Source: Sediminibacterium sp. Gen4 (GTDB lineage: Bacteria > Bacteroidota > Bacteroidia > Chitinophagales > Chitinophagaceae). Taken from it: a stretch of 64,000 nt of DNA. The translations under genes were made by a program, and so were the position numbers. The stretch spans positions 1-64,000 of the forward strand of contig JACBFI010000016.1 of NCBI GenBank assembly GCA_013391385.1, given 5' to 3'. The notes beneath the pieces were generated by a model. That model had not been told where the DNA came from, did no database searches, and saw only the letters and a list, made by a program, of their open reading frames with translations. Shown here piece after piece: positions 2,829 to 57,285 of this stretch (its first letter is position 1; each line of letters starts with the position of its first letter).

Positions 2829-2867
2829 AAAAGTCAAAAGTCAAAATCGTTTTGACTTTTGACTTTT
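2829..2867. repeat. Perfect inverted repeat built from GTCAAAA words
   Basis: Two 18-nt arms (2829-2846 and 2850-2867) are exact reverse complements around a 3-nt loop. Each arm is a tandem of the word AAAAGTC. A T-run follows on the plus strand only. Both neighbouring genes run minus, so it is not an obvious terminator for them. It belongs to the class of word-based palindromes found throughout this window. Confidence 0.85.
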
Positions 2868-2873
2868 GATTTT

Positions 2874-3329
2874 TTAATTAGATGCCAACAACTCCTTCAC
2901 CACCGCAGAAATGGCTTTCCCATCTGCTTGTCCGGAAAGTTGTTTGGAAGCTACCCCCATTACCTTGCCCATGTCTTGTGGACCTGCAGCGCCGGTAGTG
3001 GTGATGATTTCAGCGATGATCTTCTTTAATTCATCTGCATCCAACTGTTTGGGCAGGAACTGTTCGATCACAGCAATTTCTTCCTGTTCTTTTTTAGCGA
3101 GGTCTTCACGGTTTTGTTGCTGGAATATTTCCAGTGAATCTTTTCTTTGTTTTACCAGCTTCTGTAACAGTTTCAATTCCCCTTCGGCATTGATTTGTCC
3201 GTTAGCACCGGGTTCTGTTTTAGCTTTGATGATTTCAGCTTTGATGGCACGTAGACCACGGAGAAGCGCTTCATTTTTTGATTTCATCGCTTCTTTCATA
3301 CCTGTCATTACTTTTTCTTCTAAACTCAT
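2874..3329 (-). CDS. GatB/YqeY-domain protein
   Basis: A 151-residue protein matching the YqeY family over its full length: an N-terminal helical bundle (MSLEEKVMTGMKEAMKSKN), the EQFLPKQL segment, and the C-terminal DMGKVMGVASKQL segment shared with the GatB tail of the Asp/Glu-tRNA amidotransferase. YqeY proteins are thought to bind tRNA-related partners, but no activity is established. ATG start at 3329, 11 bp after the gldC stop, so the two probably share a transcript. Confidence 0.9.
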   Translation of the reverse strand: MSLEEKVMTGMKEAMKSKNEALLRGLRAIKAEIIKAKTEPGANGQINAEGELKLLQKLVKQRKDSLEIFQQQNREDLAKKEQEEIAVIEQFLPKQLDADELKKIIAEIITTTGAAGPQDMGKVMGVASKQLSGQADGKAISAVVKELLASN

Positions 3330-3340
3330 AGCGGTATGTT

Positions 3341-3685
3341 TTATTGGTTTTCTTTTAATTGAGAATCACGGAATTTTTTGTAGAACTCTTTGGCAAAAGC
3401 TTTCATGTCTTCCATCATTTCCTTTTGTTGCGTGGCACGCATATAGGTATCCGCCATACCCATCAGGGTTTGGTAATAAAAATCGGCCATTTCATCTACC
3501 ATCATTTCCTTGGTCCAGAGATCGATGCGCAGGGCTGATTTATCCGCCGCGTCCCAAAAAGCTACCATCATGGCTCTGGCAGGTTGTGCCATATCTGCAG
3601 TGCTGTCGCTCGCTTTCCATTGGATGGACTGTGGTACTTTTTGTTCGTCTAAGTGAACATCAATGTTTATTGTTGAAGTATGCAT
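3341..3685 (-). CDS. gldC: Gliding motility protein GldC
   Basis: A 114-residue soluble protein. The sequence follows the GldC pattern: the opening INIDVHLDEQKVPQSIQW, ALRIDLWTKEMMVDEM in the middle, and a helical C-terminus with ATQQKEMMEDM. GldC is an accessory factor of Bacteroidota gliding, found also in non-gliding species, and is not a core secretion component. A TATTTTTG promoter box lies at 3715-3722. No other gld gene is in the window, so motility cannot be concluded. Confidence 0.92.
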   Translation of the reverse strand: MHTSTINIDVHLDEQKVPQSIQWKASDSTADMAQPARAMMVAFWDAADKSALRIDLWTKEMMVDEMADFYYQTLMGMADTYMRATQQKEMMEDMKAFAKEFYKKFRDSQLKENQ

Positions 3686-3714
3686 ACGTAGTTCAAAGAT
3701 TTTAAAATAAGGCG

Positions 3715-3722
3715 CAAAAATA
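3715..3722 (-). promoter_or_regulatory. Predicted -7 box for gldC-yqeY
   Basis: TATTTTTG on the minus strand matches the Bacteroidota TAnnTTTG consensus and sits about 30 nt before the gldC ATG. No good -33 TTTG was seen at the expected distance. Confidence 0.45.
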
Positions 3723-3749
3723 AGGTTTAATCAGCAGCCGAGTGAAGGC

Positions 3750-4880
3750 CTATACGCTCAATACTGCTTTGCGTAAAGATTCATATATGGCGATAGCACT
3801 GGTATCCCAGCTAAATTGACCAACCCTTTCCAAGCCTTTGGTAATAAAAGCATTACGGATACCTTCATTTCGGTATAGACTCAACATCTCTTTGGCAATG
3901 GCATCTGGATCGGCAGGATCAATCAGTAAAGCGGCATCACCGGCTACTTCCGGCATACTACTGGTATTTGAGCAAATAACAGGAACGCCACATTGCATGG
4001 CTTCTAAAATAGGCAATCCGAAACCTTCAAACCAGGAAGGATATACCAGCGCATAAGCTGCGGCCGTTACTCTTTGTAATTGTTCTTCGGGTAAATAATC
4101 CAATAGCACTACATCTTCCCGGTATTTGTAGGTCTTGATTTTTTCCAAAAGATCATCGTATTGCCAAGCTTTTCTACCAGCTACCAGCAACTTCATATTA
4201 CTGTGTTGCCATTTTTTAAAATGTGAGAATGCTTTCAGTAGGTTTAATAAATTTTTCCGAGGATGAATACCTCCTACAAACAAGAAATATTCTCTTCCAT
4301 CTGCATATCCATCTTTCACCGCTTGTTTGTCTTCCCACTCCATGGGTTGAAACCCTTTCCGTACTGCACCGCCGATCACTTGGATCTTTGTTGAAGCAGT
4401 TCGATAGGTTTTCATGATATCTGTTTTTGAAAACTCAGATACGGTGATGATCTGTTTTGCTTTGCGCAGAAATGCGGGTGTGAACCAACGATAATAGGCC
4501 CGCTGATACCAGCTGATGTATTCAGGATGATGCAAAAAAGCCAGATCATGGATCATGAGCACTTGCGGAACAGAACTAGTAACACTACAAAATCCGTATG
4601 GCTGAAACCAAACATCGGCTTTCCATTTTTTTACAGCTCTTGTCGCTTTTATATCATACCAATATTTAAAACTCAGAGGGTGACGTGCAGCAGGGGGTAC
4701 TAATACCGAATGAACATTAGGAGCGGTAATAAACGGTGTTTCCCATGCACGATCATACAATAACAAAAACTCATCTTCCGGATGTGACGCTACCATACGA
4801 CGTAATACTTCCGCCGTATAATGCCCATACCCTTCCATTGGATTGTTCTGCAGAAAAATGGCATTGATGGCGATACGCAT
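3750..4880 (-). CDS. GT4-type glycosyltransferase
   Basis: A 376-residue cytosolic glycosyltransferase of the GT-B fold. The N-terminal half carries the acceptor domain (MRIAINAIFLQNNPMEGYGHY); the C-terminal half has FVGGIHPRKNLLNLL and the nucleotide-sugar site PSWFEGFGLPILEAMQCGVPV with the E-x7-E pattern typical of GT4. The sugar donor and acceptor are unknown; surface polysaccharide or mannan-like glycosylation is likely. The frame opens at a TTG at 4910, but ATG at 4880 starts the conserved N-terminus. A TAATTTTG box at 4887-4894 lies 6 nt upstream of that ATG, which also excludes the TTG. Confidence 0.92.
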   Translation of the reverse strand: MRIAINAIFLQNNPMEGYGHYTAEVLRRMVASHPEDEFLLLYDRAWETPFITAPNVHSVLVPPAARHPLSFKYWYDIKATRAVKKWKADVWFQPYGFCSVTSSVPQVLMIHDLAFLHHPEYISWYQRAYYRWFTPAFLRKAKQIITVSEFSKTDIMKTYRTASTKIQVIGGAVRKGFQPMEWEDKQAVKDGYADGREYFLFVGGIHPRKNLLNLLKAFSHFKKWQHSNMKLLVAGRKAWQYDDLLEKIKTYKYREDVVLLDYLPEEQLQRVTAAAYALVYPSWFEGFGLPILEAMQCGVPVICSNTSSMPEVAGDAALLIDPADPDAIAKEMLSLYRNEGIRNAFITKGLERVGQFSWDTSAIAIYESLRKAVLSV

Positions 4881-4886
4881 GGGAAG

Positions 4887-4894
4887 CAAAATTA
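4887..4894 (-). promoter_or_regulatory. Predicted -7 box for the glycosyltransferase gene
   Basis: TAATTTTG on the minus strand fits TAnnTTTG. It ends 6 nt before the ATG at 4880, so the transcript would have almost no leader. Confidence 0.45.
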
Positions 4895-4975
4895 GTAGGT
4901 ATACGATCAATTATTGTTAAAATAAAGCATCGATATAAAAGGTTAAGAATTTATATTATATTATTGTATTCACTT

Positions 4976-6115
4976 ATGCGAAAAACATGCTTTCTTTTGT
5001 TATCCTGTTTATTGTATCTGAACATACAAGCATCTGATTCATTATATGTTCAACTCAATAAGCAAAACTTCAAAAAAGGAGATACCCTAGATTTTTCTTG
5101 TGTCATCCCCGATTTTGAAAAAGCAAAACTCAATGCGGCATCCTTACATGTATGGATCGATCATATCAGTACCGGCACTCGCTGGAAATTTCGTTATCCG
5201 TTTATCAATGGCGAAGCTCAGGCAGCACTGGTTTTGGCAAAAACATTACCTGATGGACATTTCGCTGTGAACTTCCTGGTACAAAAGGGATATTTCCGTT
5301 TATCCGGACAGTTAAAAGAAAAGTTTGAGGATGAGAACAATATCAATTACCTGATGGTTCCAAAAAACAAACGGACCTATTCAGAAACCATCACACTGAA
5401 TAAGGATGGTTTTTTTCGTTTGAAGAGTACCTTATTCGAAGATTCTGCTTATTTCGTTTTTTCACCCGTTAAAAAGAACGCCAAAAATAACCTGAACATC
5501 AGTATAGAAACGCCTTTGGACTCTACTTTCATTCCTGAAATGGAAACTAGGATATGGATTACTGTGGGGAATCAGAAAAGACCCATGAACAAAGAAGATT
5601 CTGCTGCTTATGCATTTAACATGATCAGTAGCTCGGGTACTGATCTGTTACCCAATGTAACGGTTGTGGGTAAATACAAAAAGAAAGTAGAGCAATACGA
5701 TGATTATTATTCGAGTGGTCCGTTTAAACGTGATGAAGCGATGATCTTTGACGGAATTGAAGACGAAACCATGGCACGATCCATGAGCATTCTTCGTTTT
5801 CTGGAAGGAAAAGTACCCGGACTGATCGTTGAAAAAGATCAGGAAAGCATGGTGGAGATGGCAAGATGGAGAGGTGAGCCTACGGAAATTTATTTGGATG
5901 AGTTTAGAGTATCCCCACAAGATATTTGGATCGTTTCTCCTTCTGATGTAGCGATGGTAAAAGTGTACCGTCCACCCGCGATGTTATCACCATTATCAGG
6001 AGCCGCCGGTGCTATCGCTATTTATACCAAGCGTGGAGAGTTTGCGGGGAAGAATAGATTTAAACATAGCTTTACAGTGAAGGGATATACACCTGCGGAA
6101 GCAGTTTGGCAGTGA
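4976..6115 (+). CDS. Secreted macroglobulin-like/TonB-plug protein lacking a barrel
   Basis: A 379-residue protein with a signal peptide (MRKTCFLLLSCLLYLNIQAS). Residues about 22-115 resemble an alpha-2-macroglobulin-type beta sandwich (LYVQLNKQNFKKGDTLDF). The C-terminal 150 residues look like a TonB-receptor plug: PNVTVVGKYKKK, then RFLEGKVPGLIVEKD, EIYLDEF and a final GAAGAIAIYTKRGEF. No beta-barrel follows, so it is not a transporter by itself. Family members in Bacteroidota are usually near 800 residues, so this is a short version. The ATG at 4976 is chosen over an in-frame TTG at 4964 that precedes the charged n-region. Function unknown. Confidence 0.8.
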   Translation: MRKTCFLLLSCLLYLNIQASDSLYVQLNKQNFKKGDTLDFSCVIPDFEKAKLNAASLHVWIDHISTGTRWKFRYPFINGEAQAALVLAKTLPDGHFAVNFLVQKGYFRLSGQLKEKFEDENNINYLMVPKNKRTYSETITLNKDGFFRLKSTLFEDSAYFVFSPVKKNAKNNLNISIETPLDSTFIPEMETRIWITVGNQKRPMNKEDSAAYAFNMISSSGTDLLPNVTVVGKYKKKVEQYDDYYSSGPFKRDEAMIFDGIEDETMARSMSILRFLEGKVPGLIVEKDQESMVEMARWRGEPTEIYLDEFRVSPQDIWIVSPSDVAMVKVYRPPAMLSPLSGAAGAIAIYTKRGEFAGKNRFKHSFTVKGYTPAEAVWQ

Positions 6116-6192
6116 TATTTGTATAGAAGATGAACAGCTATTGATCGTTTCCATTTCTCATTTATACAATTCGTTTCTAAAATACCTGTGCT

Positions 6193-6651
6193 ATGCAAAA
6201 ATTACAATTCAAAGTAAACATCAACGCACCTGCAGCCAATGTATACGATTGTATGCTTGGTATTCAAAATAAATCAACTTATGAGCAATGGACTTCATTG
6301 TTCAATCCCACATCCACCTATGAGGGAAGTTGGAATAAAGGAAGTAAAATTCTATTTATTGGCGTAGATGAGAAAGGAGAAAAGGGAGGTATTGTTTCCA
6401 AGATAGCTGATAATATTCCCCACCAATTTGTTTCGATTCAACATTATGGTCTTGTAAAAGGTGATCAGGAAATTACGGAGGGACCGGAAGTAGAAAAATG
6501 GGCCAATGGATTTGAAAATTATCACTTCGAAGAAAACAATGGAATTACAACCGTTACTGTTGAATTAGATACCACTGAAGATTTCATAGGTTATATGAAT
6601 GAGAAATATCCAAAAGCACTTAACAGGTTGAAAGAACTTTGTGAACAGTAA
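6193..6651 (+). CDS. SRPBCC-fold protein (AHSA1-like)
   Basis: A 152-residue protein with the START/Bet v 1-type helix-grip fold. It opens with a strand (LQFKVNINAPAANVYDCM), has the buried-cavity region SKILFIGVDEKGEKGG, and ends in a long helix (YMNEKYPKALNRLKELCEQ). Such proteins bind hydrophobic ligands or modulate partners. No catalytic residues can be named. It stands alone between two inverted orientations. Confidence 0.82.
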   Translation: MQKLQFKVNINAPAANVYDCMLGIQNKSTYEQWTSLFNPTSTYEGSWNKGSKILFIGVDEKGEKGGIVSKIADNIPHQFVSIQHYGLVKGDQEITEGPEVEKWANGFENYHFEENNGITTVTVELDTTEDFIGYMNEKYPKALNRLKELCEQ

Positions 6652-6713
6652 AATGGAACGCAGATGAATGAATCATGATTGACCATGAAAATTATAAGAA
6701 TCTGTGTTCCATT
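6652..6713. repeat. Inverted repeat between convergent genes
   Basis: Arms AATGGAACGCAGAT (6652-6665) and ATCTGTGTTCCATT (6700-6713) pair with one mismatch. It fills the gap between the SRPBCC gene and the convergent dehydrogenase gene and probably acts as a two-way terminator. The CGCAGAT word recurs in the repeat at 16178. Confidence 0.7.
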
Positions 6714-6714
6714 A

Positions 6715-7563
6715 TCAATAATGATAAAACCCTTTCCCCGTTTTCCGTCCCAATTCACCCGCAGCTACTTTCGCCGCTTGAATTGGCGAAGGTGTTAAAC
6801 GTTTGGGTTTACCCAGTGCTTCCCATACAATATTGCTTACACCAAAATTGATATCCATTCCAATAAGATCCATCAGTTTGAATGGACCCATTTTAAAACC
6901 ACTCGCTTCCATCACCGCATCAATCGCAGCAAAATCCATCTGCTCTTTTTCTACCAGTTGCATGGCTTCCAGGTAATAATGTCTGGCAACGCGATTGACA
7001 ATAAAGCCCGGTGCATCTTTACAGACAACCGGCACTTTCCCCATCTGTTTACTGATAGCAATGGTCTGTTGCATTACTTCCGCAGAAGTAGCGGTTCCTT
7101 GTATTACTTCCACCAGTTTCATCAATGGAGCCGGATTGAAAAAATGCATGCCAACGACTCTTTCAGGATGCGGAATTTCGACCGCGATCTCACTCACCGG
7201 AATTGAAGAGGTATTGGTAGCCAAAATGGTATCATTACTATTCAAAGCAGCCAGTTGAGTAAACAAACTCACTTTGGCTTCTTTCTTTTCGATAATGGCT
7301 TCAATGATCATATCTGCTACACAATCATTTGCTTGCGTTGTGAAAAGGATACGATCCAGAGTCTCTTGTTTTTCTGTTGCACTGATCTTCCCTTTTTCTG
7401 CCAACTTATTAAGATTCAGCTCAATGGCCTTTCTGCTTTTTTCGATCATCTCCCCACTTAAATCAAACTGAATGGTTCGATAGCCAGATTGGGCACTTAC
7501 CTGAGCAATGCCACTCCCCATAGTTCCCGCGCCACAAATACAGATGGTTTTGATTGATTTCAT
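6715..7563 (-). CDS. 3-hydroxyacyl-CoA (3-hydroxybutyryl-CoA) dehydrogenase
   Basis: A 282-residue NAD-dependent dehydrogenase that oxidises (S)-3-hydroxyacyl-CoA to 3-ketoacyl-CoA. The Rossmann motif GAGTMGSGIAQ is at 11-21, ATNTSSIPV at 115-123, and the active-site segment GMHFFNPAPLMKLVEV gives His140 and Glu152 as the catalytic dyad. The C-terminal helical domain follows from FIVNRVARHYYLEA. The length is that of stand-alone HBD/PaaH enzymes, without a hydratase fusion. It probably serves fatty-acid or butanoate metabolism. Single gene, ATG start at 7563. Confidence 0.94.
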   Translation of the reverse strand: MKSIKTICICGAGTMGSGIAQVSAQSGYRTIQFDLSGEMIEKSRKAIELNLNKLAEKGKISATEKQETLDRILFTTQANDCVADMIIEAIIEKKEAKVSLFTQLAALNSNDTILATNTSSIPVSEIAVEIPHPERVVGMHFFNPAPLMKLVEVIQGTATSAEVMQQTIAISKQMGKVPVVCKDAPGFIVNRVARHYYLEAMQLVEKEQMDFAAIDAVMEASGFKMGPFKLMDLIGMDINFGVSNIVWEALGKPKRLTPSPIQAAKVAAGELGRKTGKGFYHY

Positions 7564-7642
7564 ACGATCCTGTAATGATTGGAACGCAAGATACTTACAT
7601 CTTTTCCACTTTAACTAAACGCCGTAAAATCCTGCTACTCAG

Positions 7643-8434
7643 ATGGCTTACTTTTATACCATGCAAAAAATGCAGCAACTCGATCTGTTTGGAATGCCTG
7701 TAGAACCGGCAAGTGCCCCTGCTAAAAAAACGGTAGCCCCTAAAGCAAAACCTGCGCAGGAAGTTGTACCTGAACCTCAACCTATGGTTGTAGCAGAACC
7801 GGAACCCGTAATGATTCCCGAGCCTGTTGCAATCATCACTGAAACTCCTCTCATTGAGACTGAGCCTTCTATTATTGCAGAAACACCAATTAAACAAGAA
7901 GACCCCGTTGTTTTTGCAGATGAACGTATTGTGGTAAAGATCAAACCCAAAAACATTACTACGGAAGTAAAAGCTATTGAACAAGCAATACCTACTCCGC
8001 CTAAAGCTGCTGAACCTCTCGCTACCAAACAACCTGGTAAACGCGGTAGAAAATCTTTCCGTGAAATAGATACTGAAATTGATCTCGTTGATATTCCGGA
8101 TGAAGAAACATTGAAACAAAAATTATACTACCCCATCAGTGAAGTAGCCAAATGGTTCAAAGTGAATACTTCTTTACTGCGTTATTGGGAAAATGAATTT
8201 GATATTCTCCAACCCCGCAAGACACGCAAGGGAGATCGCTTATTCAGATATGAAGATATCCGCAACTTACAACTGATCTATTTCCTGTTGCGCCAGCGTA
8301 AGTTCTCCATTGAAGGAGCAAGAGCTTATCTCAAACAAAACAAACATCAGGCCGATGTACAGGCACAACTTGTACAATCCTTGACCAAATTCAAATCTTT
8401 CTTACTCGAGCTAAGAGCAGGTCTAGGTAACTGA
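7643..8434 (+). CDS. MerR-family regulator with acidic proline-rich N-terminus
   Basis: A 263-residue protein. Residues about 20-130 are low-complexity, rich in Pro, Glu, Ala and Thr, and probably disordered. A MerR winged helix-turn-helix follows at roughly 155-235 (YYPISEVAKWFKV, LLRYWENEFDIL, LFRYEDIRNLQLIYFLL). The DNA-binding domain being C-terminal is the reverse of classical MerR and is the common arrangement for this Bacteroidota group. There is no recognisable effector domain or cysteine metal site. ATG at 7643 is used; ATGs at 7661 and 7670 are alternatives. Confidence 0.85.
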   Translation: MAYFYTMQKMQQLDLFGMPVEPASAPAKKTVAPKAKPAQEVVPEPQPMVVAEPEPVMIPEPVAIITETPLIETEPSIIAETPIKQEDPVVFADERIVVKIKPKNITTEVKAIEQAIPTPPKAAEPLATKQPGKRGRKSFREIDTEIDLVDIPDEETLKQKLYYPISEVAKWFKVNTSLLRYWENEFDILQPRKTRKGDRLFRYEDIRNLQLIYFLLRQRKFSIEGARAYLKQNKHQADVQAQLVQSLTKFKSFLLELRAGLGN

Positions 8435-8602
8435 CCCTTCGTCGCCATTTCAGCCCTGCGGACTGAACGCTCCTCAGGGTGACAAGATCGACTATAATAA
8501 TAATGGTGATGGGTAAAACCTATCACCATTTTACTATCCAAAAATCGATTGTCACCCTGAGGAATCTTCCGACACAAGTCGGAAATGGCGACGAAGGGTC
8601 AG
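8431..8602. repeat. 172-bp palindromic REP-like element between convergent genes
   Basis: The outer arms are 21-nt perfect reverse complements (8431-8451 and 8582-8602). Inside, CTCAGGGTGACAA pairs with its complement near 8550, and an inner hairpin pairs AATGGTGAT with ATCACCATT. Both convergent genes end in the arms: the merR TGA is at 8432-8434 and the MscS TGA at 8599-8601. The CACCCTGAGG core resembles a repeat widespread between genes in Bacteroidota. Confidence 0.85.
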
Positions 8603-9693
8603 TTGTTTGCTTGTCGCACAGTCACATCTGTATTCGCAGCTGCCAACTGTAAATGATGTTCTTCCAGCCAACCAATAATTTCAAGATTCACCCGCTGTCT
8701 TAATTGATTAAATGTTTCTATGGACTGATCCATGGATGTGAAAAATTCAATGATCACCACATGTGCATTCTTACCTGTTTCTGCAAGAAAGACAACCGTG
8801 CTGAGAATATCCGGTTTATCCAATATCTTTTTGGCTGCTACGGTGAACGCTTCTAATTGTGTTGCAGAAGCTGCTAGATCCAATTCCATCCTGAGCTCTG
8901 CTTTACGTTGTGTTCGCAAACTGATATTGTCTACGATCGTATCCACCATTTGTTTATTTGGAACAGAGATATAGGTTTTTTCTGTCGTTCTGATTCGTGT
9001 ACTTCTTAATCCGATCTTTTCAATATTTCCGGTAAACCCATTGACTTTTACCAGATCACCTACAGCAAACGGACGATCAAAAAATATGATGAAAGAAGCG
9101 ATTAAATTTTCCAGACTCTCTCTTGTTGCTAAAGCAAGTGCCGCACCCACAATACTCAATCCGGTCAACACATTACCTACTGGCTTATTGAAAGAGAATT
9201 TCATGATCAATAATATCCCAATGATCACCAGTATGACTTTAAAAAAATCTTTGAAGAAAATAATCAGTTGATTGTCTGTTTGATCTATTGTAAGATTTGC
9301 CTTTTCTTCCAGTACAATCGCAATAAAGTCAATGACACGTAAACAAAGCCGAATGAATACAGTCACCAATATCCCGTTTGCTAATGATTCAATGATTTGT
9401 CTGGATGTAACACGATAAACCTTAAATTCTAACACACCAGGAAACTGTAACTTATCAATGGCTATCACTGAAATGGAAAGAAATAAAAATAACCCCAATG
9501 GGCCAGCTACAAGGTCGAGAAAAGATTGCCTAGCTGTATGATCTCTTTTCTTCGTAATTGCCTTATACAGCTGATTGGCCAAGTACTTTGAAATAAAGCG
9601 TTTTAGCAACAGCATCAGCAGAATAGTGCCTATTACATATAAGTAGGCTTCAACAGTATTGTCGAATAACTTTTGCTGTAGAAAATTTTCCAT
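8599..9693 (-). CDS. MscS-family mechanosensitive channel
   Basis: A 364-residue inner-membrane protein with about five hydrophobic segments in residues 10-195. The pore-lining helix and beta domain follow: GLSIVGAALALATRESLENLIASF, then PFAVGDLVKVNGFTGNIEKIGLRSTRIRT, which is the MscS signature, and YISVPNKQMVD. The C-terminal alpha/beta domain completes the vestibule. It should open on membrane tension and release solutes on hypo-osmotic shock. ATG at 9693. It lies 21 bp downstream of lpxH and may be co-transcribed. Confidence 0.92.
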   Translation of the reverse strand: MENFLQQKLFDNTVEAYLYVIGTILLMLLLKRFISKYLANQLYKAITKKRDHTARQSFLDLVAGPLGLFLFLSISVIAIDKLQFPGVLEFKVYRVTSRQIIESLANGILVTVFIRLCLRVIDFIAIVLEEKANLTIDQTDNQLIIFFKDFFKVILVIIGILLIMKFSFNKPVGNVLTGLSIVGAALALATRESLENLIASFIIFFDRPFAVGDLVKVNGFTGNIEKIGLRSTRIRTTEKTYISVPNKQMVDTIVDNISLRTQRKAELRMELDLAASATQLEAFTVAAKKILDKPDILSTVVFLAETGKNAHVVIIEFFTSMDQSIETFNQLRQRVNLEIIGWLEEHHLQLAAANTDVTVRQANN

Positions 9694-9714
9694 AGTGTAA
9701 TCTACATAGTAGGG

Positions 9715-10476
9715 TTAAGATTGCCATTGATGCAATTGCACTTCAGTACCATCAAAACTGGCATAGGTAAAATTACGGATCCAATCACCGAGATTGATGT
9801 AACGGCTTTTTTCATTGAGCTTAAAGTCGATGGGATAATGACGATGACCAAACACGAGATAATCGAAATGTTCTTTAGTCAACATTTCTTTACAATAAAT
9901 AATCAGCCACTCATTTTCTTCACCCAGGAAATGTTGATCGGAAGTACCGGTTTTTTCACGACTCTTTCTGCTGAAATAATTAGCTAATCCAATCCCCCAG
10001 CTAGGGTGCAGCAATCCGAATAACCATTGACACAAAGGGTTTCGGAATATCTTTTTTAGAAACTTATATCCATGATCACCCGGACCTAATCCATCACCAT
10101 GACCAATATAAAAACGCTTCCCATTCCATTCAAATACTTTGGGATGATGGTAGACCGGAATATTCAGTTCTTTCTCAAAATATCCGCGCATCCACATATC
10201 ATGATTACCGACAAAACAATGAATCGCAATTCCGCGATCTGTAAGTTCAGCAAGTTTGCCGAGTAACCGTACATAACCCTTGGGTACTACCTGTTTGTAT
10301 TCGTACCAGAAATCAAAAATATCTCCCACAATAAAGATCATCGCAGCACTGTCTTTGATACTGTCCAAAAATGCCACTACCTTTTTCTCACGAACAAGAC
10401 TCTGTTCATAATCAGGCGCGCCGAGATGAAAATCTGAAAGAAAATATATTTTTTGTTGCGGTGTAATGGATGGCAT
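9715..10476 (-). CDS. lpxH: UDP-2,3-diacylglucosamine diphosphatase (LpxH-type)
   Basis: A 253-residue metallophosphoesterase of lipid A synthesis that cleaves UDP-2,3-diacylglucosamine to lipid X and UMP on the inner face of the inner membrane. Metal ligands are visible in order: SDFHLGAPD (Asp15, His17), GDIFDFWYEY (Asp52), GNHD (Asn91, His92), GHGDGLGPGD (His126) and FGHRHYP. The FDFWYEY sequence is typical of LpxH rather than LpxI or LpxG. ATG at 10476. lpxD lies elsewhere in the window at 49.4 kb. Confidence 0.9.
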   Translation of the reverse strand: MPSITPQQKIYFLSDFHLGAPDYEQSLVREKKVVAFLDSIKDSAAMIFIVGDIFDFWYEYKQVVPKGYVRLLGKLAELTDRGIAIHCFVGNHDMWMRGYFEKELNIPVYHHPKVFEWNGKRFYIGHGDGLGPGDHGYKFLKKIFRNPLCQWLFGLLHPSWGIGLANYFSRKSREKTGTSDQHFLGEENEWLIIYCKEMLTKEHFDYLVFGHRHYPIDFKLNEKSRYINLGDWIRNFTYASFDGTEVQLHQWQS

Positions 10477-10526
10477 TAGGCAAATAACAATTGTGCATCC
10501 GTATGATGCATGAATGATCTGTGAAT

Positions 10527-10955
10527 TTACTGTTTATTTTTCTGCTGCATATATACCAGCAAATCGCCACATTCAATACGAGGTCTGCCGCTTATATCTC
10601 CTTTATACCAGTAGATCCATGCTTCTATAGCGGTATCATTTAAGTATACCGTCGTTTTCTCACGAGCATACAATACCGGTTCATCTGCTTCTCCATTGAT
10701 GCCCTCATAATCATCCAACTGACCAATCGCCCAGGGAAATTCTGCCGTTTGTTGAATGGTATACAATTCTCCGGTGATCCAAGTTTCTGCATGGCCGGGA
10801 ACTGCAGCGGGATAATCGCCCATATCATACAACTCACCCTTCACTTTTGCAGTGCCTGCCAATTCAAAATATTTGCTGATATAGGCGTAGGCCGGATGCT
10901 GAAAGCCACTTCTAAGTGAACCATACACAAATAAAGGCAATACGGTGATAGACAT
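10527..10955 (-). CDS. Gamma-glutamylcyclotransferase-like protein
   Basis: A 142-residue protein of the GGCT/AIG2 fold. LPLFVYGSLRSGFQHP carries the YGSLR substrate-binding loop, and the conserved acidic region QLDDYEGINGEADEP supplies the probable catalytic Glu. Bacterial members act on gamma-glutamyl amides or are of unknown substrate. It starts 5 bp after the stop of the LUD gene, so it is in the rsfS-ftsH-LUD transcript. Confidence 0.85.
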   Translation of the reverse strand: MSITVLPLFVYGSLRSGFQHPAYAYISKYFELAGTAKVKGELYDMGDYPAAVPGHAETWITGELYTIQQTAEFPWAIGQLDDYEGINGEADEPVLYAREKTTVYLNDTAIEAWIYWYKGDISGRPRIECGDLLVYMQQKNKQ

Positions 10956-10960
10956 ACGCT

Positions 10961-11599
10961 TTAGTTAGTTCTTTGAACAAGGAAACAAAATACTTCTTTC
11001 GGACCATGCACCCCCACTACCAATGTTTTTTCAATATCCGCAGTTCTGCTGGGTCCGGTTGCCAATGTGATCATAGAAGGCAATTGCTCTCCGTATTCTT
11101 GTTGTAATGAAATTAATGCTTCATCAATATCATAGACCAACTGATCAGTATATGCAATACAAATATGTATAGGCGCATACACACTCACCGTTCTGCCACT
11201 TTGTTGTCCACTGGATAGTACCATACTTCCTGTTCTTGCCACCAGGTATTCGCAGCCGGTAATAGAAGCATCGCAACTCTCTACTTCAGGTGCCGTCATG
11301 GCATGAAAACCTGCATCGGAGAGTACTTGTCTGAGTTCATCTTCTCTACAATACAACTCTTTCCACTCTCTTTTAATGAAAAGCATATTGAGTTGTGAAG
11401 CCAGTTCCTTCTCATTTTCACAATAAGAAAAGCGGCCTTGTAGCTTGGTGAAATTTTCTGCAAACAATACATCCAACTCTTCAGTTGGTGCATGGAATAC
11501 CGAAGACTGTTCTGTTTGTTGGGGAAAGGGAACAGGCACTGGTTGAGTCAGTGCCTGTTTTATTTTATTCAAAATGGTATCTCTTGCAGATTGTGACAT
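10961..11599 (-). CDS. LUD-domain protein (LutC/YkgG-like)
   Basis: A 212-residue protein with the LutC/YkgG fold. The C-terminal half carries YLVARTGSMVLSSGQQSGR and ITLATGPSRTADIEKTLV followed by GVHGPKEVFCFLV, the family hallmark. LutC normally works with LutA and LutB in lactate oxidation; neither is in the window, so the role of this lone copy is open. Its ATG shares one base with the ftsH stop (TAATG), which implies translational coupling. Confidence 0.88.
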   Translation of the reverse strand: MSQSARDTILNKIKQALTQPVPVPFPQQTEQSSVFHAPTEELDVLFAENFTKLQGRFSYCENEKELASQLNMLFIKREWKELYCREDELRQVLSDAGFHAMTAPEVESCDASITGCEYLVARTGSMVLSSGQQSGRTVSVYAPIHICIAYTDQLVYDIDEALISLQQEYGEQLPSMITLATGPSRTADIEKTLVVGVHGPKEVFCFLVQRTN

Positions 11600-14221: not shown

Positions 14222-14992
14222 TTGCCATCAGACATCGTTAAAACACCAATCGGACAGCCGTTCGTGGAATTATCTGTGACAGATAGTACCAACATCTATG
14301 CCATGACCCATATTCAACACAATATGGCAACACATGGTTCAGTTTTTTTTGCGCATCAGCAGGTGGCGGGGAAGGGCCAACATGGGAAAACCTGGGTAAC
14401 CGAGGGGGGACAAAACATCATTCTTTCCGCTATCATTGACCCGAATCCATTGATACTGGGGCAACAATTCAGATTAAGCGTTGCAGTTGCCTTGGCATGT
14501 TATGATTTTTTTCGCAGCTATGCGGGTGAGGAGACCCATATTAAATGGCCCAATGATCTGTATTGGCGTGACAGAAAGGCAGGGGGGATTTTGATTGAGA
14601 ACCAAATTCGGGGTCAACATTGGCAATGGGCGGTTGTGGGCATAGGTATCAACATCAACCAAACCACATTCGATCCTACACTGACCAACCCCGTTTCCCT
14701 CAAACAAATCACCGGCAAAACTTTTGATCCGGTACAACTGGCCAAAGAACTCTGTACCTATCTTACCCAACGTGTGCACCAACTAATCAACCACCCATTT
14801 TCAGCATTATTAGAAGAATACAATCGGTGTTTGTTCAAAAGAAATGAAGTGGTACAACTCAAAAGACTCAACACCCGGTTCACCTGCACCATACTCGGCG
14901 TTAATGAGGTTGGAGAACTCTTGGTAAAAGACGGCCCGGCAGATCGGTTTGTGTTTGGAGAAGTGAGCTGGGGGTGGGAAACAGAGAAATAA
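14222..14992 (+). CDS. birA: Biotin--[acetyl-CoA-carboxylase] ligase
   Basis: A class I biotin protein ligase of about 256 residues without the N-terminal repressor domain; it attaches biotin to the carboxyl carrier protein. Motifs are AGKGQHGKTWVTEGGQN (adenylate-binding loop), HIKWPNDLYW and KAGGILIEN (lysine-binding), then the small C-terminal beta domain. The frame has no ATG before the conserved start; TTG at 14222 (LPSDIVKTPIGQPF) is preferred because the promoter at 14182-14189 excludes the TTG at 14162. The stop codon lies inside the left arm of a 21-bp inverted repeat. Confidence 0.92.
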   Translation: MPSDIVKTPIGQPFVELSVTDSTNIYAMTHIQHNMATHGSVFFAHQQVAGKGQHGKTWVTEGGQNIILSAIIDPNPLILGQQFRLSVAVALACYDFFRSYAGEETHIKWPNDLYWRDRKAGGILIENQIRGQHWQWAVVGIGININQTTFDPTLTNPVSLKQITGKTFDPVQLAKELCTYLTQRVHQLINHPFSALLEEYNRCLFKRNEVVQLKRLNTRFTCTILGVNEVGELLVKDGPADRFVFGEVSWGWETEK

Positions 14993-15054
14993 GAAATAGG
15001 AAACAAGGAACAAAGGAAGTAGAAAAACTTTCTTATTTCTTATTTCTCTGTTTC
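14978..15054. repeat. Inverted repeat of TTCTTATTTC words at the birA end
   Basis: Perfect 21-nt arms at 14978-14998 and 15034-15054 with a 35-nt spacer. The birA TAA (14990-14992) is inside the left arm. The arm is built from the tandem word TTCTTATTTC; the same word appears again near 17410-17440. Confidence 0.8.
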
Positions 15055-15103
15055 TTATTTCTTACTTATCTCTCCTCGTAACTTGCACCCTAATCAACTT
15101 CTC

Positions 15104-16159: not shown

Positions 16160-16177
16160 TGATAAGTGCGAAGGATA

Positions 16178-16262
16178 GGCCGCAGATTTTTATGATCAAT
16201 TATGATTTATTTGTCTAGGTGAAATCTGCGTTCATCATAACAATCATAAAAAATCTGCGGCC
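16178..16262. repeat. Inverted repeat at the selD end
   Basis: Arms at 16178-16196 and 16243-16262 pair over 19 positions with one bulged T (GGCCGCAGATTTT... against its complement). It separates selD from the convergent CtlX-like gene and likely terminates both. Confidence 0.8.
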
Positions 16263-16271
16263 CATCATCAT

Positions 16272-17883: not shown

Positions 17884-17898
17884 AGGCGATAGTGAATG

Positions 17899-17979
17899 GT
17901 CCATGGTCCATAGTCCATGGTATTTTTATCAGATAAATTCTCTTTCCCTACCATGGACCATCGACTATGGACCATGGAC
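17899..17979. repeat. Inverted repeat of CCATGG/TCCAT words
   Basis: The left part (17899-17922) and right part (17949-17979) are reverse complements apart from a 7-bp unit present only on the right. Arms are tandem GGTCCAT and GTCCATA words. It separates the M28 peptidase stop from the downstream IPExxxVDY gene on the same strand. Confidence 0.75.
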
Positions 17980-17983
17980 TAAA

Positions 17984-21120: not shown

Positions 21121-21196
21121 TCAGTGCCTTCTGTGCTTTCAGTGGCAAATAATTTTCTATCAAGAAATTGCCACTGAAAGCACAGAAATACACTGA
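21121..21196. repeat. Inverted repeat of CAGTGGC/GCACAG words
   Basis: Inner arms at 21129-21148 and 21168-21187 are perfect 20-nt reverse complements, extended outward by TCAGTG/CACTGA. The loop is 19 nt. It lies just after the SRPBCC-VOC stop, before the DoxX gene. A related half-copy is at 60069-60097. Confidence 0.8.
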
Positions 21197-22471: not shown

Positions 22472-22513
22472 AATTCAAATAGCTACGGGCTTAAGCCCGT
22501 AGCTATTTGAATT
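22472..22513. repeat. 42-bp perfect palindrome
   Basis: A perfect 42-nt palindrome with no loop, centred on GGGCTTAAGCCC, flanked by AGCTAC/GTAGCT and AATTCAAAT/ATTTGAATT. The esterase stop codon (22512-22514) begins in its right end. The core resembles GGGCTTAAGCCC repeats seen between genes in other bacterial phyla. Confidence 0.9.
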
Positions 22514-30561: not shown

Positions 30562-30611
30562 ATTGGGTCATTATGTCACTATCTGAAGAGATAATGACGC
30601 AATGACCCAAT
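30562..30611. repeat. Inverted repeat after rpsB
   Basis: ATTGGGTCATTATGTCACTATCT (split here as 30562-30584) pairs imperfectly with 30589-30611 around a GAAG loop, reading ATTGGGTCATT and AATGACCCAAT at the ends. It lies between rpsB and tsf and may reduce read-through. Confidence 0.65.
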
Positions 30612-31551: not shown

Positions 31552-31622
31552 AGCTTCAGGCTGCAAGCCTCAAGCCGCAAGCAGCATTTCGCTTGTAACT
31601 TGTAGCTTGAAGCCTGTAGCTT
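31552..31622. repeat. Degenerate inverted repeat of AGCTTGTAG-type words
   Basis: The left part (31552-31584) and right part (31590-31622) are imperfect reverse complements, both made of variants of GCTTCAAGC and GCTTGTAGC. It sits between rpsI and rpsB. Similar words without a partner occur at 32772-32808. Confidence 0.6.
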
Positions 31623-31630
31623 CTCTCCAA

Positions 31631-32601: not shown

Positions 32602-32688
32602 GAAATTGGAATGTATTTTTAATCGAACCTTTGTAATTAATTGATTTTCAATAAAAAATTTGGTTGAAAATTTCTATTGATGAAAAAA

Positions 32689-32740
32689 TAAGCCACAGAT
32701 CCACAGATTACGCAACCATAATCTGTGAATCTGTGGCTTA
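32689..32740. repeat. Inverted repeat of CCACAGAT words
   Basis: Twenty-two-nt arms (32689-32710 and 32719-32740) pair with one mismatch around an 8-nt loop. Each arm contains two copies of CACAGAT. Probable terminator for the hydrolase gene, which runs toward it. Confidence 0.8.
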
Positions 32741-32812
32741 ATATAACAGCACGCTATCCCATTTCAGACTAAATACTTGTAGCCTGTGGCTTGCTACTTG
32801 TCGCTTACACTG

Positions 32813-36487: not shown

Positions 36488-36668
36488 CAGATGGGTTATA
36501 GCATATGGATCATGGCAGATAGTTAGTAAGGATTTTATAACCTTAATAAAATAGATCAAGAGACAAAAAAGAGATTACTAAAAACCACGAATCAAATTTT
36601 TATAATACTACCTAAAACAATTGACCCATACGCAATCAACTATTAGCTATCGCCTATTTGCCATCAGC
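36488..36668. other. recO-pheS intergenic region with repeated words
   Basis: About 187 nt. The right side (36640-36668, CTATTAGCTATCGCC) and left side (36488-36520, GCAGATAGTTAG) are loosely reverse-complementary and made of GATAGC/TAGCTA words. No promoter consensus was found for recO. Confidence 0.4.
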
Positions 36669-49405: not shown

Positions 49406-50359
49406 ATGAAGTTTCCCGCACCTGTTTCTGCCGGTTGGATCGCGTCATTGATCGATGCCGAATTGATCGGTAATCATGATGCATTGGTAACCGGTATCAA
49501 TGAAATTCATAAAGTAGAAACAGGCGATCTTGTTTTTGTAGATCATCCTAAGTACTATGATAAATGTTTAAATAGTGCTGCAGATTTTATCATTATCAAT
49601 ACGGATCAAGTAACGATTCCGACAGGTAAAACAATTTTAGTAACCCCGGAACCATTCGAAGCATACCTCACCATTGTCAATCATTTCAGACCTTTTGTTC
49701 CGGCACAAAAAGCTATTAGTGATTCTGCTATTATTGGTGAAGGAACTGTGATCATGCCCAACTGTTTTATTGGCAATCATGTTCAAATCGGTAAACATTG
49801 TATCATTCATCCCAACGTAACCATATTAGACCATACCATCATTGGAGATCATGTGATCATCCAAGCCGGAACAACTATAGGAAGTGATGCTTTTTATTAC
49901 AACACGAAAAAAAATAGAGACGTATGGTACAAGAAAATGCAGAGTTGCGGTAATGTAGTCATCGAAGACCATGTAGAAATTGGTGCCGGATGTACCATTG
50001 ATAGAGGCGTGACTGCTGAAACCAGAATCGGACAAGGAACATGCATGGACAATATGGTGCATATTGGTCATGATACGACGGTTGGAAAGAATTGTTTGTT
50101 TGCTGCTCAAGTGGGTATTGCCGGAGGTACCATTATTGAAGATGGAGTCACCTTATGGGGACAGGTAGGTGTTAGTAAAACATTGACCATTGGTGCTAAT
50201 GCGGTTGTATTGGCACAAAGTGGTGTTCCCTCTTCCTTGGAAGGTGGCAAAACCTATTTCGGATACCCTGCAGAAGATGCTTCTCTCAAAAGACGAGAAC
50301 TCGTTTGGATTAAACGAATTCCCGAGTTGTGGAAGAAGGTGATGGAGGGGAAATCGTGA
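49406..50359 (+). CDS. lpxD: UDP-3-O-(3-hydroxyacyl)glucosamine N-acyltransferase
   Basis: A 317-residue lipid A enzyme adding the N-linked 3-hydroxyacyl chain. A uridine-binding N-terminal domain (about 1-95) is followed by the left-handed beta helix of hexapeptide repeats (IIGEGTVIMPNCFIGNHVQIG and onward) with catalytic His in NMVHIGHDTTVG. The C-terminal helix (RELVWIKRIPELWKKV) forms the acyl-carrier contact. ATG at 49406. The stop lies in a perfect 29-bp inverted repeat. Confidence 0.96.
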   Translation: MKFPAPVSAGWIASLIDAELIGNHDALVTGINEIHKVETGDLVFVDHPKYYDKCLNSAADFIIINTDQVTIPTGKTILVTPEPFEAYLTIVNHFRPFVPAQKAISDSAIIGEGTVIMPNCFIGNHVQIGKHCIIHPNVTILDHTIIGDHVIIQAGTTIGSDAFYYNTKKNRDVWYKKMQSCGNVVIEDHVEIGAGCTIDRGVTAETRIGQGTCMDNMVHIGHDTTVGKNCLFAAQVGIAGGTIIEDGVTLWGQVGVSKTLTIGANAVVLAQSGVPSSLEGGKTYFGYPAEDASLKRRELVWIKRIPELWKKVMEGKS

Positions 50360-50423
50360 ATTGTGAATGGTGAATTGTCAATGGTTTACGTTATCATTGA
50401 CAATTCACCATTCACAATTCACG
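50355..50423. repeat. Perfect 29-bp inverted repeat of GTGAATTG words
   Basis: Arms 50355-50383 and 50395-50423 are exact reverse complements around an 11-nt loop. Each arm is a string of GTGAATTG, TGAATGG and TGTCAATG words. The lpxD TGA (50357-50359) lies inside the left arm, and a further partial word extends toward the convergent thioredoxin-like gene. Confidence 0.92.
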
Positions 50424-50437
50424 ACTGACCATTCACA

Positions 50438-54787: not shown

Positions 54788-54795
54788 CAAAGATA
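54788..54795 (-). promoter_or_regulatory. -7 box of the MntR-like gene
   Basis: TATCTTTG on the minus strand ends exactly 4 nt before the ATG at 54783, predicting a leaderless mRNA. Confidence 0.5.
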
Positions 54796-54814
54796 GCTGA
54801 AATGACAAACTTAT

Positions 54815-54846
54815 TTTGTTAGATAACTCTAACTTTTATACTTTTA
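54815..54846 (+). promoter_or_regulatory. TonB-receptor promoter with MntR-type operator
   Basis: TTTG (54815-54818) and TACTTTTA (54839-54846, one mismatch) are 20 nt apart. Between them lies the dyad GTTAGATAACTCTAAC (54818-54833; arms GTTAGA/TCTAAC), of the form bound by DtxR/MntR regulators. It also sits just upstream of the divergent mntR-like gene, so one site could control both. Confidence 0.62.
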
Positions 54847-54873
54847 CACATCGAACAGCGTAAATGTTATTTT

Positions 54874-57156
54874 GTGAGACAGCTTTTGTATGTATTCTTC
54901 TTAGGATTCTTTTCTTTTTCATCGAATGCTCAACAAGCATCGGTAGCGGGAAGAATCACACAATCGGGCAGTCCGATTGAACTGGCTACTGTTCGGTTAT
55001 TAAATACGGATATACAAGCCAGTTCAGATAGCAATGGATTTTATCAGTTACAAAATCTGAATGCGGGAACTTATACTTTAATCGTAGAACAGGTGGGCTA
55101 TCAATCCTTTCGCAAAAAAATTCAACTCAATAACGCACAACCATTATTGCTGGATATTCAATTGATACCGATGACCAGCCAGATTGCTGATGTGGTAGTA
55201 ACCGGTACACTAAAAGAAGTAAGAAAAACAGAAAGTCCGGTTCCGGTAGAAGTGTATACACAGACTTTCTTTAAAAAAAATCCAACTCCTAATATTTTTG
55301 ATGCCTTACAACAGATCAATGGCGTAAGACCACAACTCAATTGTAATATCTGTAACACCGGCGATATCCATATCAACGGATTGGAAGGACCTTATACCAT
55401 GGTATTGATTGATGGGATGCCCATCGTAAGTAGTTTAGCTTCCGTGTATGGTTTATCAGGTATTCCCAATGCATTGGTGGAAAGAGTGGAGATTGTAAAA
55501 GGTCCGGCTTCATCCTTGTACGGTAGTGAAGCGGTGGGTGGACTCATCAACATCATCACAAAAAAACCACAGCATGCACCTTCGGTCTATGTTGATTACA
55601 TGCATACGAGTTGGAATGAAAAAAATGCAGACCTCGGTTTTGTTTGGAAGCCTTTACGCAAGGCACAAGTATTAACAGGTATTAACCTGTATCACTATAA
55701 TACACCGATTGATCATAATAAAGATGGATTTACAGATGTAACGCTACAACAACGAATTTCTGTTTTTCAAAAATGGAATTTTCAACGCAAAGAAAACAGA
55801 TTGCTCAGTTTAGCAGTGCGTTACTATTATGAAGACAGATGGGGTGGAGAAATGAACTGGAACAAAAAATTCAGAGGAGGCGATAGTATTTATGGGGAAA
55901 GTATTTATACCAAACGATGGGAGCTCACCGGACAATACCAGTTACCGGTAAAAGAAAAGATATTGTATTCGGTTTCATTCAATGACCATGATCAGGATAG
56001 TAGGTATGGAACAACTTCGTATATCGCCCGACAAAAAATTTTCTTCCATCAACTCACTTGGGATAAAAAAATGGGTGATCATGATTTATTAGCAGGTCTC
56101 ACAGCACGTTATACATTTTATGATGACAATACCCCCGCAACTAATGATCCTGTTTTATTGAAAAATCTTCCTACAAAAAATTGGCTGCCCGGCATTTTTC
56201 TACAAGATGAAATTCGATTGAATACAGCGCAACAATTGTTATTGGGATTACGCTATGATAAACATGAAGTACATGGAAATATCATCACACCCCGTTTGGC
56301 ATTTAAATGGAAAACAGGAGATCAGGAAAGTTTGCGCATTAATGCTGGTAGCGGTTTCAGGGTGGTAAATTTATTTACAGAAGATCATGCCGCGTTAACC
56401 GGTGCCAGAAAAGTGGTGATCAAAAATGAATTGAAACCAGAACGTTCGTACAATATCAATCTAAACTATTCGAAAAAACTACTTAGCAAAAAAGGTGTGA
56501 TTTGGAACTTTGATGTTTCTGCCTGGTACACTTATTTTAATAATCGCATCATTGCAGATTATGAAACCAATCCGAATGAGATCAATTATGACAACCTGAA
56601 TGGACATGCCATCAGCAAAGGCATTACCCTCAATACAGAACTGAGTTTGCTGAATGGCTTAAAAGGGATGGCAGGTATTACCTTACAAGAAGTAGCTACT
56701 ATTGATCAGGGAATAAAAACGCAACAAATTCTCACCGAAAAAATAACGGGTACCTGGTCTATTTCCTATCGTATCAAACCTTGGAATTTGGGTATTGATT
56801 ATACCGGAAATTTTTACGGCCCGATGCGATTGCCATTACTCGGTCCACTAGACCCGCGTAACGGCACTTCACCACTATGGAGTATTCAGAATATCCAATT
56901 TGTATTTTCCGGTATGCGTTCTATTGAATGGTATGGCGGTGTAAAAAATTTGCTCAACTGGACACCCAATAAAGGCAACCCTTTTATCATTGCCCGAACC
57001 CAGGACCCTTTTGATAAGCAGGTGGTGTACAATGCCAATGGACAAGTTCAGGCAACTCCAGATAATCCCTATGCATTAAGTTTTGATCCTACGTATGTGT
57101 ATGCCCCTAATCAAGGAATTCGTTTCTTTTTGGGGATGAGGGTTTCTATAAAATAA
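54874..57156 (+). CDS. TonB-dependent receptor for a metal or metal chelate
   Basis: A 760-residue outer membrane receptor. A signal peptide (MRQLLYVFFLGFFSFSSNAQ) is followed by a carboxypeptidase-like regulatory domain (about 22-105), the plug (VVVTGTLKEVRKTESPVPVEV; HINGLEGPYTMVLIDGMPIV) and a 22-strand barrel. The plug has the Cys pair CNICNTGDIH, seen in receptors next to metal regulators. The start is GTG at 54874, as no ATG is in frame. The MntR-type operator upstream points to Mn, Fe or Zn uptake. Confidence 0.93.
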   Translation: MRQLLYVFFLGFFSFSSNAQQASVAGRITQSGSPIELATVRLLNTDIQASSDSNGFYQLQNLNAGTYTLIVEQVGYQSFRKKIQLNNAQPLLLDIQLIPMTSQIADVVVTGTLKEVRKTESPVPVEVYTQTFFKKNPTPNIFDALQQINGVRPQLNCNICNTGDIHINGLEGPYTMVLIDGMPIVSSLASVYGLSGIPNALVERVEIVKGPASSLYGSEAVGGLINIITKKPQHAPSVYVDYMHTSWNEKNADLGFVWKPLRKAQVLTGINLYHYNTPIDHNKDGFTDVTLQQRISVFQKWNFQRKENRLLSLAVRYYYEDRWGGEMNWNKKFRGGDSIYGESIYTKRWELTGQYQLPVKEKILYSVSFNDHDQDSRYGTTSYIARQKIFFHQLTWDKKMGDHDLLAGLTARYTFYDDNTPATNDPVLLKNLPTKNWLPGIFLQDEIRLNTAQQLLLGLRYDKHEVHGNIITPRLAFKWKTGDQESLRINAGSGFRVVNLFTEDHAALTGARKVVIKNELKPERSYNINLNYSKKLLSKKGVIWNFDVSAWYTYFNNRIIADYETNPNEINYDNLNGHAISKGITLNTELSLLNGLKGMAGITLQEVATIDQGIKTQQILTEKITGTWSISYRIKPWNLGIDYTGNFYGPMRLPLLGPLDPRNGTSPLWSIQNIQFVFSGMRSIEWYGGVKNLLNWTPNKGNPFIIARTQDPFDKQVVYNANGQVQATPDNPYALSFDPTYVYAPNQGIRFFLGMRVSIK

Positions 57157-57193
57157 GTGGCTGTAGAGTAAGATCAGAGGAGGATGGACCGCA

Positions 57194-57221
57194 GATGTCT
57201 GATGTCTGATGTCTGATGTCT
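57194..57221. repeat. Four tandem GATGTCT heptamers with distal complements
   Basis: GATGTCT occurs four times without gaps at 57194-57221. Reverse-complement copies (CAGACATC, TTGACATC) follow at about 57256-57281, making a loose inverted repeat between the receptor and convergent cysS genes. Confidence 0.75.
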
Positions 57222-57285
57222 GATATAAGTATGTGAATGGTAAAAAATACCAAATCAGACATCCAACATTTGACATCAAAACATT

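Follow-up and report, generated by a model that had tools for sequence, protein, structure and literature searches.

Among the long units of simple-sequence repeats, the heptad is the most frequent in most bacterial genomes (Mrazek 2007, cited in PMC4679880). The closest precedent for the structures considered here, as far as the accessible text of the source goes, is found in Xanthomonas, in heptameric repeats of the word GGGAATC (GGGANTN; PMC4692102). Those repeats consist of degenerate 7-nt words in intergenic DNA, form 70 (Xcc) and 75 (Xac) convergent inverted pairs, occur near coding-strand stop codons or overlap them, and vary in length and sequence between sister species. The same traits are seen in a group of hairpins at gene ends in the stretch of DNA analysed here (hereafter the window), namely positions 1–64000 of contig C8 (JACBFI010000016.1) in the 3.52-Mb genome of Sediminibacterium sp. 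Gen4 (G000). An earlier note on the window had listed 14 gene boundaries with long inverted repeats and described them as one recurrent class; on inspection the sites are a mixture of several types, with seven built of heptad words (one of them loose), four of CAGAT/CTGTG words, one resembling a repetitive extragenic palindrome (REP), one resembling a miniature inverted-repeat transposable element (MITE) and one conserved hairpin (Table 1). Half of the listed sites form one class, hereafter heptad hairpins, in which a tandem array of degenerate 7-nt words is followed by a short, locus-specific loop and then by inverted words, the arrays beginning at or just after the stop codon.

The relatives compared are Sediminibacterium-like Chitinophagaceae (Bacteroidota), including S. 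goheungense (genome G042, locus L041). The nearest of them, hereafter the sister species (genome G040, JAAXIF010000065.1; locus L039), has an LpxD-like protein and a CysS that are 97% identical to those of G000, and is colinear with G000 over 21 kb at 93% DNA identity. Hairpins were sought with an ungapped finder (match +1, mismatch −2, loop 3–70, score at least 14) in genome samples, from which all hairpin counts come, and gene calls came from a simple script, which makes the gap classes given below (convergent, tandem, divergent) approximate. In the window, 11 hairpins were found against a mean of 0.1 in 10 dinucleotide shuffles, and with the script-called genes none of them overlaps coding sequence by more than 19%. 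A 364-kb sample of G000 that includes the window holds 50 hairpins (137/Mb; one in a single shuffle), one of them mainly coding; a held-out sample, another 513 kb taken from G000 and G040, holds 70 (none when shuffled), five of them mainly coding. S. goheungense has 76 hairpins in 400 kb, and 78 loci of the family have 56 in 1.36 Mb. The claim that long inverted repeats mark gene ends holds well: the finder recovers 10 of the 14 listed sites, and hairpins genome-wide lie mostly at gene 3' ends; below the score limit stand 6652 and 31552 (both 11), 57194 (13) and 36488, whose score below 11 agrees with its description as loose. No Rfam family matched the window at its gathering score, and a terminator scan of positions 1–20000 was non-discriminating, with 21 sites against 15.2 (standard deviation 4.1) in shuffles.

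Table 1. Inverted repeats of the window, with the site as first listed and the state of the orthologous gap in the sister species; none is assigned a strand.
Positions	Listed site	Type and words	Gene context	Sister species
2816..2880	2829	Heptad hairpin, words AAAAGTC/AAAAGTG, loop 3	Reaches stop codon of − strand gene ending 2874	Words unchanged
6641..6712	6652	CAGAT/CTGTG-word: CGCAGAT/ATCTGTG hairpin	Between convergent genes	Stem kept; loop longer, partly inverted
8436..8598	8431	MITE-like inverted-repeat insert, 163 nt, long imperfect TGACCCTTCGTCGCC / GGCGACGAAGGGTCA arms		Missing from the gap
14976..15060	14978	Heptad hairpin, words GAAATAA/GAAATAG	Includes stop codon of gene ending 14992	TGAATAA/TGAATAT words
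16172..16270	16178	CAGAT/CTGTG-word: GGCCGCAGATTTTTATGATC...AAAAATCTGCGGCCC hairpin	Convergent gap	Sequence near-identical
17888..17983	17899	Heptad hairpin, words GGTCCAT/AGTCCAT		Same words, register shifted
21125..21190	21121	CAGAT/CTGTG-word: TTCTGTGCTTTCAGTGGCAA hairpin, loop 19 nt		19-nt loop in inverted orientation
22472..22513	22472	REP-like palindrome AGCTACGGGCTTAAGCCCGTAGCT		
27760..27863		Extra hairpin beyond the 14 sites first listed, arms 19 nt, loop 66		
30562..30611	30562	Conserved hairpin ATTGGGTCATTATGTCACTATCT		Conserved, also in S. goheungense
31552..31628	31552	Heptad hairpin, words AAGCNNC		GTCCATA words; flanks 96–98% identical
32687..32742	32689	CAGAT/CTGTG-word: CCACAGATCCACAGATTA hairpin		Same words, also in S. 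goheungense
36488..36660	36488	Loose facing heptad arrays, TATAGCATATGGATCATGG words		GTCCATA hairpin; AGCTTATAGC words in S. goheungense
50343..50436	50355	Heptad hairpin, words GTGAATT/GTGAATG/GTCAATG, 30 perfect pairs	Includes LpxD-like gene's stop codon	One more heptad in left arm; loop inverted
57192..57278	57194	Heptad hairpin, words GATGTCT		GACATC words retained on right; left has another hairpin plus CCGCAGATT stretch

The period of the main class is clear. In the autocorrelation of the arms, lag 7 alone stands out (0.45–0.58 against 0.28–0.33 shuffled), so that the words, first described as 7–11 nt long, are 7 nt in this class. Arrays with a unit of 7 have a density of 44 per Mb in G000, 135 in G042 and 70 in G040, and units of 5, 6 and 8–12 do not exceed 32. 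In three other genomes of the genus (G010, G017 and G349), unit-7 arrays occur at 6, 0 and 0 per Mb, and samples of 160–220 kb each contain no heptad hairpin despite 12–25 hairpins/Mb overall; the trait is therefore lineage-specific, and the absence of heptad hairpins from these close relatives makes them dispensable. In a CysS tree, G000, G040, G042, L042 and L043 form one clade, of which L042 and L043 carry heptad hairpins at the LpxD gap, and heptad hairpins are also found in loci of another clade (L044, L045, L046 and L049).

The earlier note also held that each locus uses its own words, which does not survive a wider comparison: the GTGAATx words of 50355 are found again at about 20 further positions of the genome (both-strand matches are uninformative here, the query itself being palindromic), and the pattern (GTSARTD)x3 is present in 64 of 295 sampled Bacteroidia genomes, with 114 occurrences in G000. 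Within the genus, GTSARTD arrays are carried by 4 of 41 genomes. Twelve loci from the class-wide search are mostly direct arrays, the single inverted one (L173) having the opposite polarity. Plasmid records gave no match to the 50355 hairpin in a distant-mode BLAST search with the low-complexity filter on.

With regard to gene context, hairpins of all types in the G000 sample are present in 14 of the 36 convergent gaps, 26 of the 176 tandem ones and 3 of the 41 divergent ones; of the 26 in tandem gaps, 23 are closer to the upstream stop than to the downstream start. The 70 heptad hairpins are distributed over 44 tandem, 16 convergent and 10 divergent gaps; in the first sample their median distance to the stop is 4 nt, against 25 nt for other hairpins, and 11 of the 39 that face a gene end include its stop, as the earlier note had said of several. 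The orientation of the arms is strongly biased. When arrays of at least three GTSVRTN-type words were examined for neighbours within 120 nt (each pair being counted from both members), the order word-then-complement was found 40 times and the reverse never among 75 arrays, with 10 neighbours on the same strand and 25 arrays alone; the held-out values for 37 arrays are 21, 2, 2 and 12, which gives 61 against 2 for the pooled 112. Since an inverted pair reads identically from either strand, transcripts from both sides meet the word arm first. It is this 5' arm that is rich in stop triplets (0.122 per position against 0.040), its content being the higher in 37 of 48 heptad hairpins and the lower in 10; the family loci (5' arm higher in 11 of 13, 3' arm in none, two ties) and the held-out DNA (25 of 29, reverse in 4) behave alike, and the 106 non-heptad hairpins show no such bias (35 against 33, 38 ties). 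Where a heptad hairpin touches a gene end, TAA is a less frequent stop codon than among genes in general (17/50 against 1206/1898; held-out, 6/20 against 243/388). On a simple reading, the arrays extend into gene ends, where stop-bearing words are tolerated. An array of this kind would present transcripts from either side with stops in several frames and with a strong hairpin, and placement, folding and stop content together suggest a putative bidirectional transcript end or 3'-stabilising structure that is tolerated or favoured at gene ends.

Such a role raises the question of whether the hairpins are ordinary transcript-end structures kept by selection, with compensatory point mutations preserving the pairing and the words being incidental. 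The overall preference for convergent over tandem and tandem over divergent gaps, the strong predicted folds and a compensatory arm change at C13_22565 all speak for this. Nevertheless, a T-run stands beside just 5 of 48 heptad hairpins (G000, G042 and G040), which rules out plain intrinsic terminators as a general explanation; in the G000 sample the figure is 1 of 13, in line with the earlier remark that several lack one. Moreover, gene ends in G010, G017 and G349 manage without heptad hairpins, and neither a 7-nt period nor the inversion of loops described below would be expected from selection on pairing alone, so that we consider this explanation unlikely.

The comparison with the sister species shows how often the words differ. 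Of 278 intergenic gaps in G000, 171 could be mapped to G040 with a median flank identity of 92.8%, and 134 of 221 in the held-out DNA (92.0%). Among 66 gaps that contain a hairpin in at least one of the two species, the words are shared in 34, hairpins without a shared 10-mer block are present in both species in 14, and the remaining 18 are one-sided (10 only in G000, 8 only in G040). These numbers are approximate in both directions: the automatic swap rule files as different the structurally related C8_21598 and C13_6948 and the terminator-like C46_83876 and C46_89949, and several one-sided gaps (31514, 36383, C13_19342 and C13_184338) are word swaps by eye, with one side under the score limit. 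Clear swaps are seen at gap 14992 (GAAATAA against TGAATAA), gap 31514 (AAGCNNC against GTCCATA) and C13_10595 (GTGAAAA against GTCCATA, between flanks of 96–97% identity), and in the held-out sample at C35_1311, C35_81472 and C46_56077. Across more distant relatives, the LpxD gap contains hairpins of GTGAATx or GTGAGTA/GTCAGTA words in L039–L043, of other words in L044 and L046, and a plain hairpin in L047 (S. ginsengisoli), L045 being unmapped. Rewriting of the words is frequent, yet about half of the gaps (34/66) keep theirs. Different words in orthologous gaps had been proposed as support for local writing, and the 14 gaps without a shared 10-mer block provide them; word exchange in place is better explained by local errors of copying than by jumping elements of the ordinary kind.

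Whole gap alleles with other words might also be imported from other strains by homologous recombination, the hairpins being otherwise stable within each lineage. That swapped gaps are flanked by well-conserved sequence, for instance of 96–98% identity, speaks for such imports, although recombination by itself would neither invert a loop nor create words, and we regard it as quite improbable.

Three further gaps differ conspicuously between the two species. At the G040 contig C90, in the orthologue of G000:C35 3673–3708, a very long hairpin has arms of ~59 nt against an arm of 15 nt in G000, with outer letters alike, as would result from growth of the hairpin or from an insert inside one. At G000:C13 8052–8293 there is a large multi-unit CTCTGTG/CACAGAG hairpin where G040 has only a small GTGGTTATTTT...ACCAC stem. 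In the G040 orthologues of C13_8757 and C13_200337, AAGC has become TAGC in several units of both arms, which is suggestive of concerted change.

The second kind of change concerns the loops. When a polymerase switches template at short inverted repeats, the footprint described is an inverted spacer together with homogenised arms (PMC8604942), and perfect stems can arise by the same process (PMC8794818), statements which are taken from the accessible parts of these sources. Here, loops of at least 9 nt were scored as inverted if the inverted alignment beat 200 shuffles and exceeded the forward alignment by more than 2. Initial runs gave 6 of 39 gaps and 2 of 28 in the held-out sample; with redrawn shuffles, 5 of 39 and 1 of 28 stand, that is 6 of 67 (C8_6651, C8_21117, C8_50359, C13_11666, C13_25292 and C35_77316), whilst the same orientation is retained in 14 gaps of the first set and 17 held-out. 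Random segments of hairpin-free gaps appear inverted in 1/276 and 0/180 cases, a control that is too easy because well-conserved segments were used; a stricter one, in which loops are compared with non-orthologous hairpin gaps, gives 3/320 and 0/235 loop tests. In addition, at C13_163149, a terminator-like stem within GTCCATA arrays, a 5-nt loop under the length limit looks inverted. Some differences in loop orientation may also reflect short-read misassembly.

Taken together, these observations are explained most directly by the expansion of a heptameric simple-sequence repeat that has turned palindromic and is rewritten by slippage plus template switching, an explanation to which we give an even chance. 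The arrays would lengthen and shorten through slippage by one word, the opposite arm would be written or corrected by template switching between the arms, by which loops would be flipped too, and ectopic copying from one short array to another could carry words from locus to locus. Several points weigh against this explanation. The template-switch step rests mainly on inverted loops in neighbouring hairpin classes: among the six firm cases, just one (C8_50359, that is 50355) has a heptad hairpin, the rest having CAGAT/CTGTG-word or unclassified ones, the held-out sample contributes a single firm case (C35_77316), and C13_6948 and C35_81784 were lost on redrawn shuffles. Confidence was lowered because two of the eight inversions were lost and only one firm case is heptad. 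Variants are mirrored between the arms at 0.66 against a calibration of 0.60, a signal that detection bias nearly reproduces. As for slippage, multiples of 7 are over-represented among indels of at least 5 nt (12 of 33), but this excess is not special to heptad-classed gaps (2 of 6, against 10 of 27 elsewhere). The sharing of words between loci is unaccounted for by purely local copying. With respect to gene ends, the stop-triplet bias is weak when the first G000 sample is taken by itself (9 against 4 of 13), the distance to the stop failed to separate the hairpin classes in the held-out sample (both medians 4 nt), and 10 of 70 heptad hairpins (5/44 first, 5/26 held-out) lie in divergent gaps, which have no 3' end. 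Finally, the counts are not independent, as samples overlap by orthology and words recur, and many of the sequences compared come from metagenome assemblies.

A bolder version of the slippage and template-switching explanation, which we put forward as doubtful but possible, is that rewriting in situ is continuous: words would be swapped in both arms simultaneously and loops flipped by these two processes, the structure outlasting its changing sequence, vocabularies such as GTCCATA in the sister lineage would sweep many loci, and the result would be a 3'-end and back-up-stop device that is bidirectional, renews itself and operates without a transposase. Long stems with perfect pairing, and the way in which that pairing is kept up, have long been puzzling. 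The gene-end hairpins form a system in bacteria, one of which (S. goheungense) can be cultured, where each genome has dozens of stems that change between sister species, some with inverted loops, so that a template-switch origin becomes directly testable; they also indicate that repeat-built structures can cover gene 3' ends, where the sequence, rather than the shape, seems free to change.

It remains to consider small mobile elements of the REPIN or MITE kind, moved by a Y1 (RAYT-like) or other transposase, the differences in words then reflecting separate insertions at gene ends. The single Y1_Tnp gene of the genome is adjoined by a REP-like palindrome that by eye is similar in build to 22472, of which BLAST found no second copy in the own-genome sample. 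The 8436–8598 insert is absent from the sister species; one of its ends recurs as five partial copies (46–51 nt) in other parts of the genome, and no clear target-site duplication was seen. Moreover, matches to PF01797 (E ≤ 0.001) are present in all 4 genomes of the genus with GTSARTD arrays and in 3 of 37 without, the match in G345 being weak, below cut-off and interrupted. However, this co-occurrence of Y1_Tnp genes and heptads is only partial, as a Y1_Tnp gene is present in G010, whose 160-kb sample lacks heptad hairpins, and G345, with its weak match, has 100 GTSARTD matches. The palindromes nearest to the Y1_Tnp genes examined are REP-like or absent, the closest heptad hairpins in G040 being ~0.7 and 1.3 kb off. 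Heptad loops are unlike between loci: none of 28 pairs of comparable length matches in the G000 sample, and in G042 there is one weak match among 76. As a general explanation, copy-paste of whole hairpins is ruled out by loops that are not shared, and mobilisation by the Y1_Tnp gene by the partial co-occurrence and the nature of the neighbouring palindromes; we hold the mobile-element reading as a whole to be rather improbable. The earlier preference for local writing over copy-paste is accordingly borne out in part: swapped words, some inverted loops and the dissimilarity of heptad loops agree with it, whereas 22472 and 8431 resemble types of mobile element, the vocabulary is shared and 34 of 66 gaps keep their words.

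Two observations made around such elements may be added. A palindrome AACTTTTGGAAAGTT(4 nt)AACTTTCCAAAAGTT occurs in many identical copies at G042:C1 ~194650–200460 (L152 from 14653, L153 to 457), as well as at L125 3229 and, in two copies, beside weak Y1_Tnp matches in L164; the stretch could be a cassette or a transposon-associated array. The interval G040:C89 341980–342647 holds a Y1_Tnp gene (L159), and in that gap G000:C13 (~42915–43056) has a CAGAG-word hairpin.

When compared with known systems, the heptad hairpins share the 3'-end hairpin with intrinsic (Rho-independent) terminators, and differ from them in mostly lacking a T-run and in having arms made of tandem heptads. Like REPIN/RAYT systems, as far as these are covered in the accessible part of PMC3116915, they are intergenic inverted pairs forming hairpins, and 22472 resembles a REP, but in the heptad class no whole-element sequence is conserved and, at the loci seen, no RAYT-like gene lies adjacent. 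The TAACTGA heptamers of Beggiatoaceae, Cyanobacteria and some Bacteroidetes are likewise intergenic and patchy across phyla, and their forward repeats bear stop codons in all three frames; according to the available portion of PMC4679880, they are direct repeats, mostly before start codons, with one inverted case in the main genome. With template-switch footprints, as treated in the accessible text of PMC8604942 and PMC8794818, the likeness is the inversion of the spacer; there, perfect stems are created and repaired, and the footprints are known from yeast coding sequences and RNA genes, set beside which the mirrored arm variants here (0.66 against 0.60) have been given above. The Xanthomonas repeats, in the part of PMC4692102 drawn upon, have one G-rich, G-quadruplex-forming vocabulary and come with no mention of loop inversion or word exchange, both of which are seen here, and the several vocabularies of the heptad hairpins (such as GTGAATG, GTCCATA, AAAAGTC, GAAATAA and GATGTCT) are free of runs of three G. 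No description of these hairpins in Bacteroidota was found among open-licence PMC papers, and the combination of several vocabularies per genome, replacement of words in orthologous gaps and inverted loops seems to be new.

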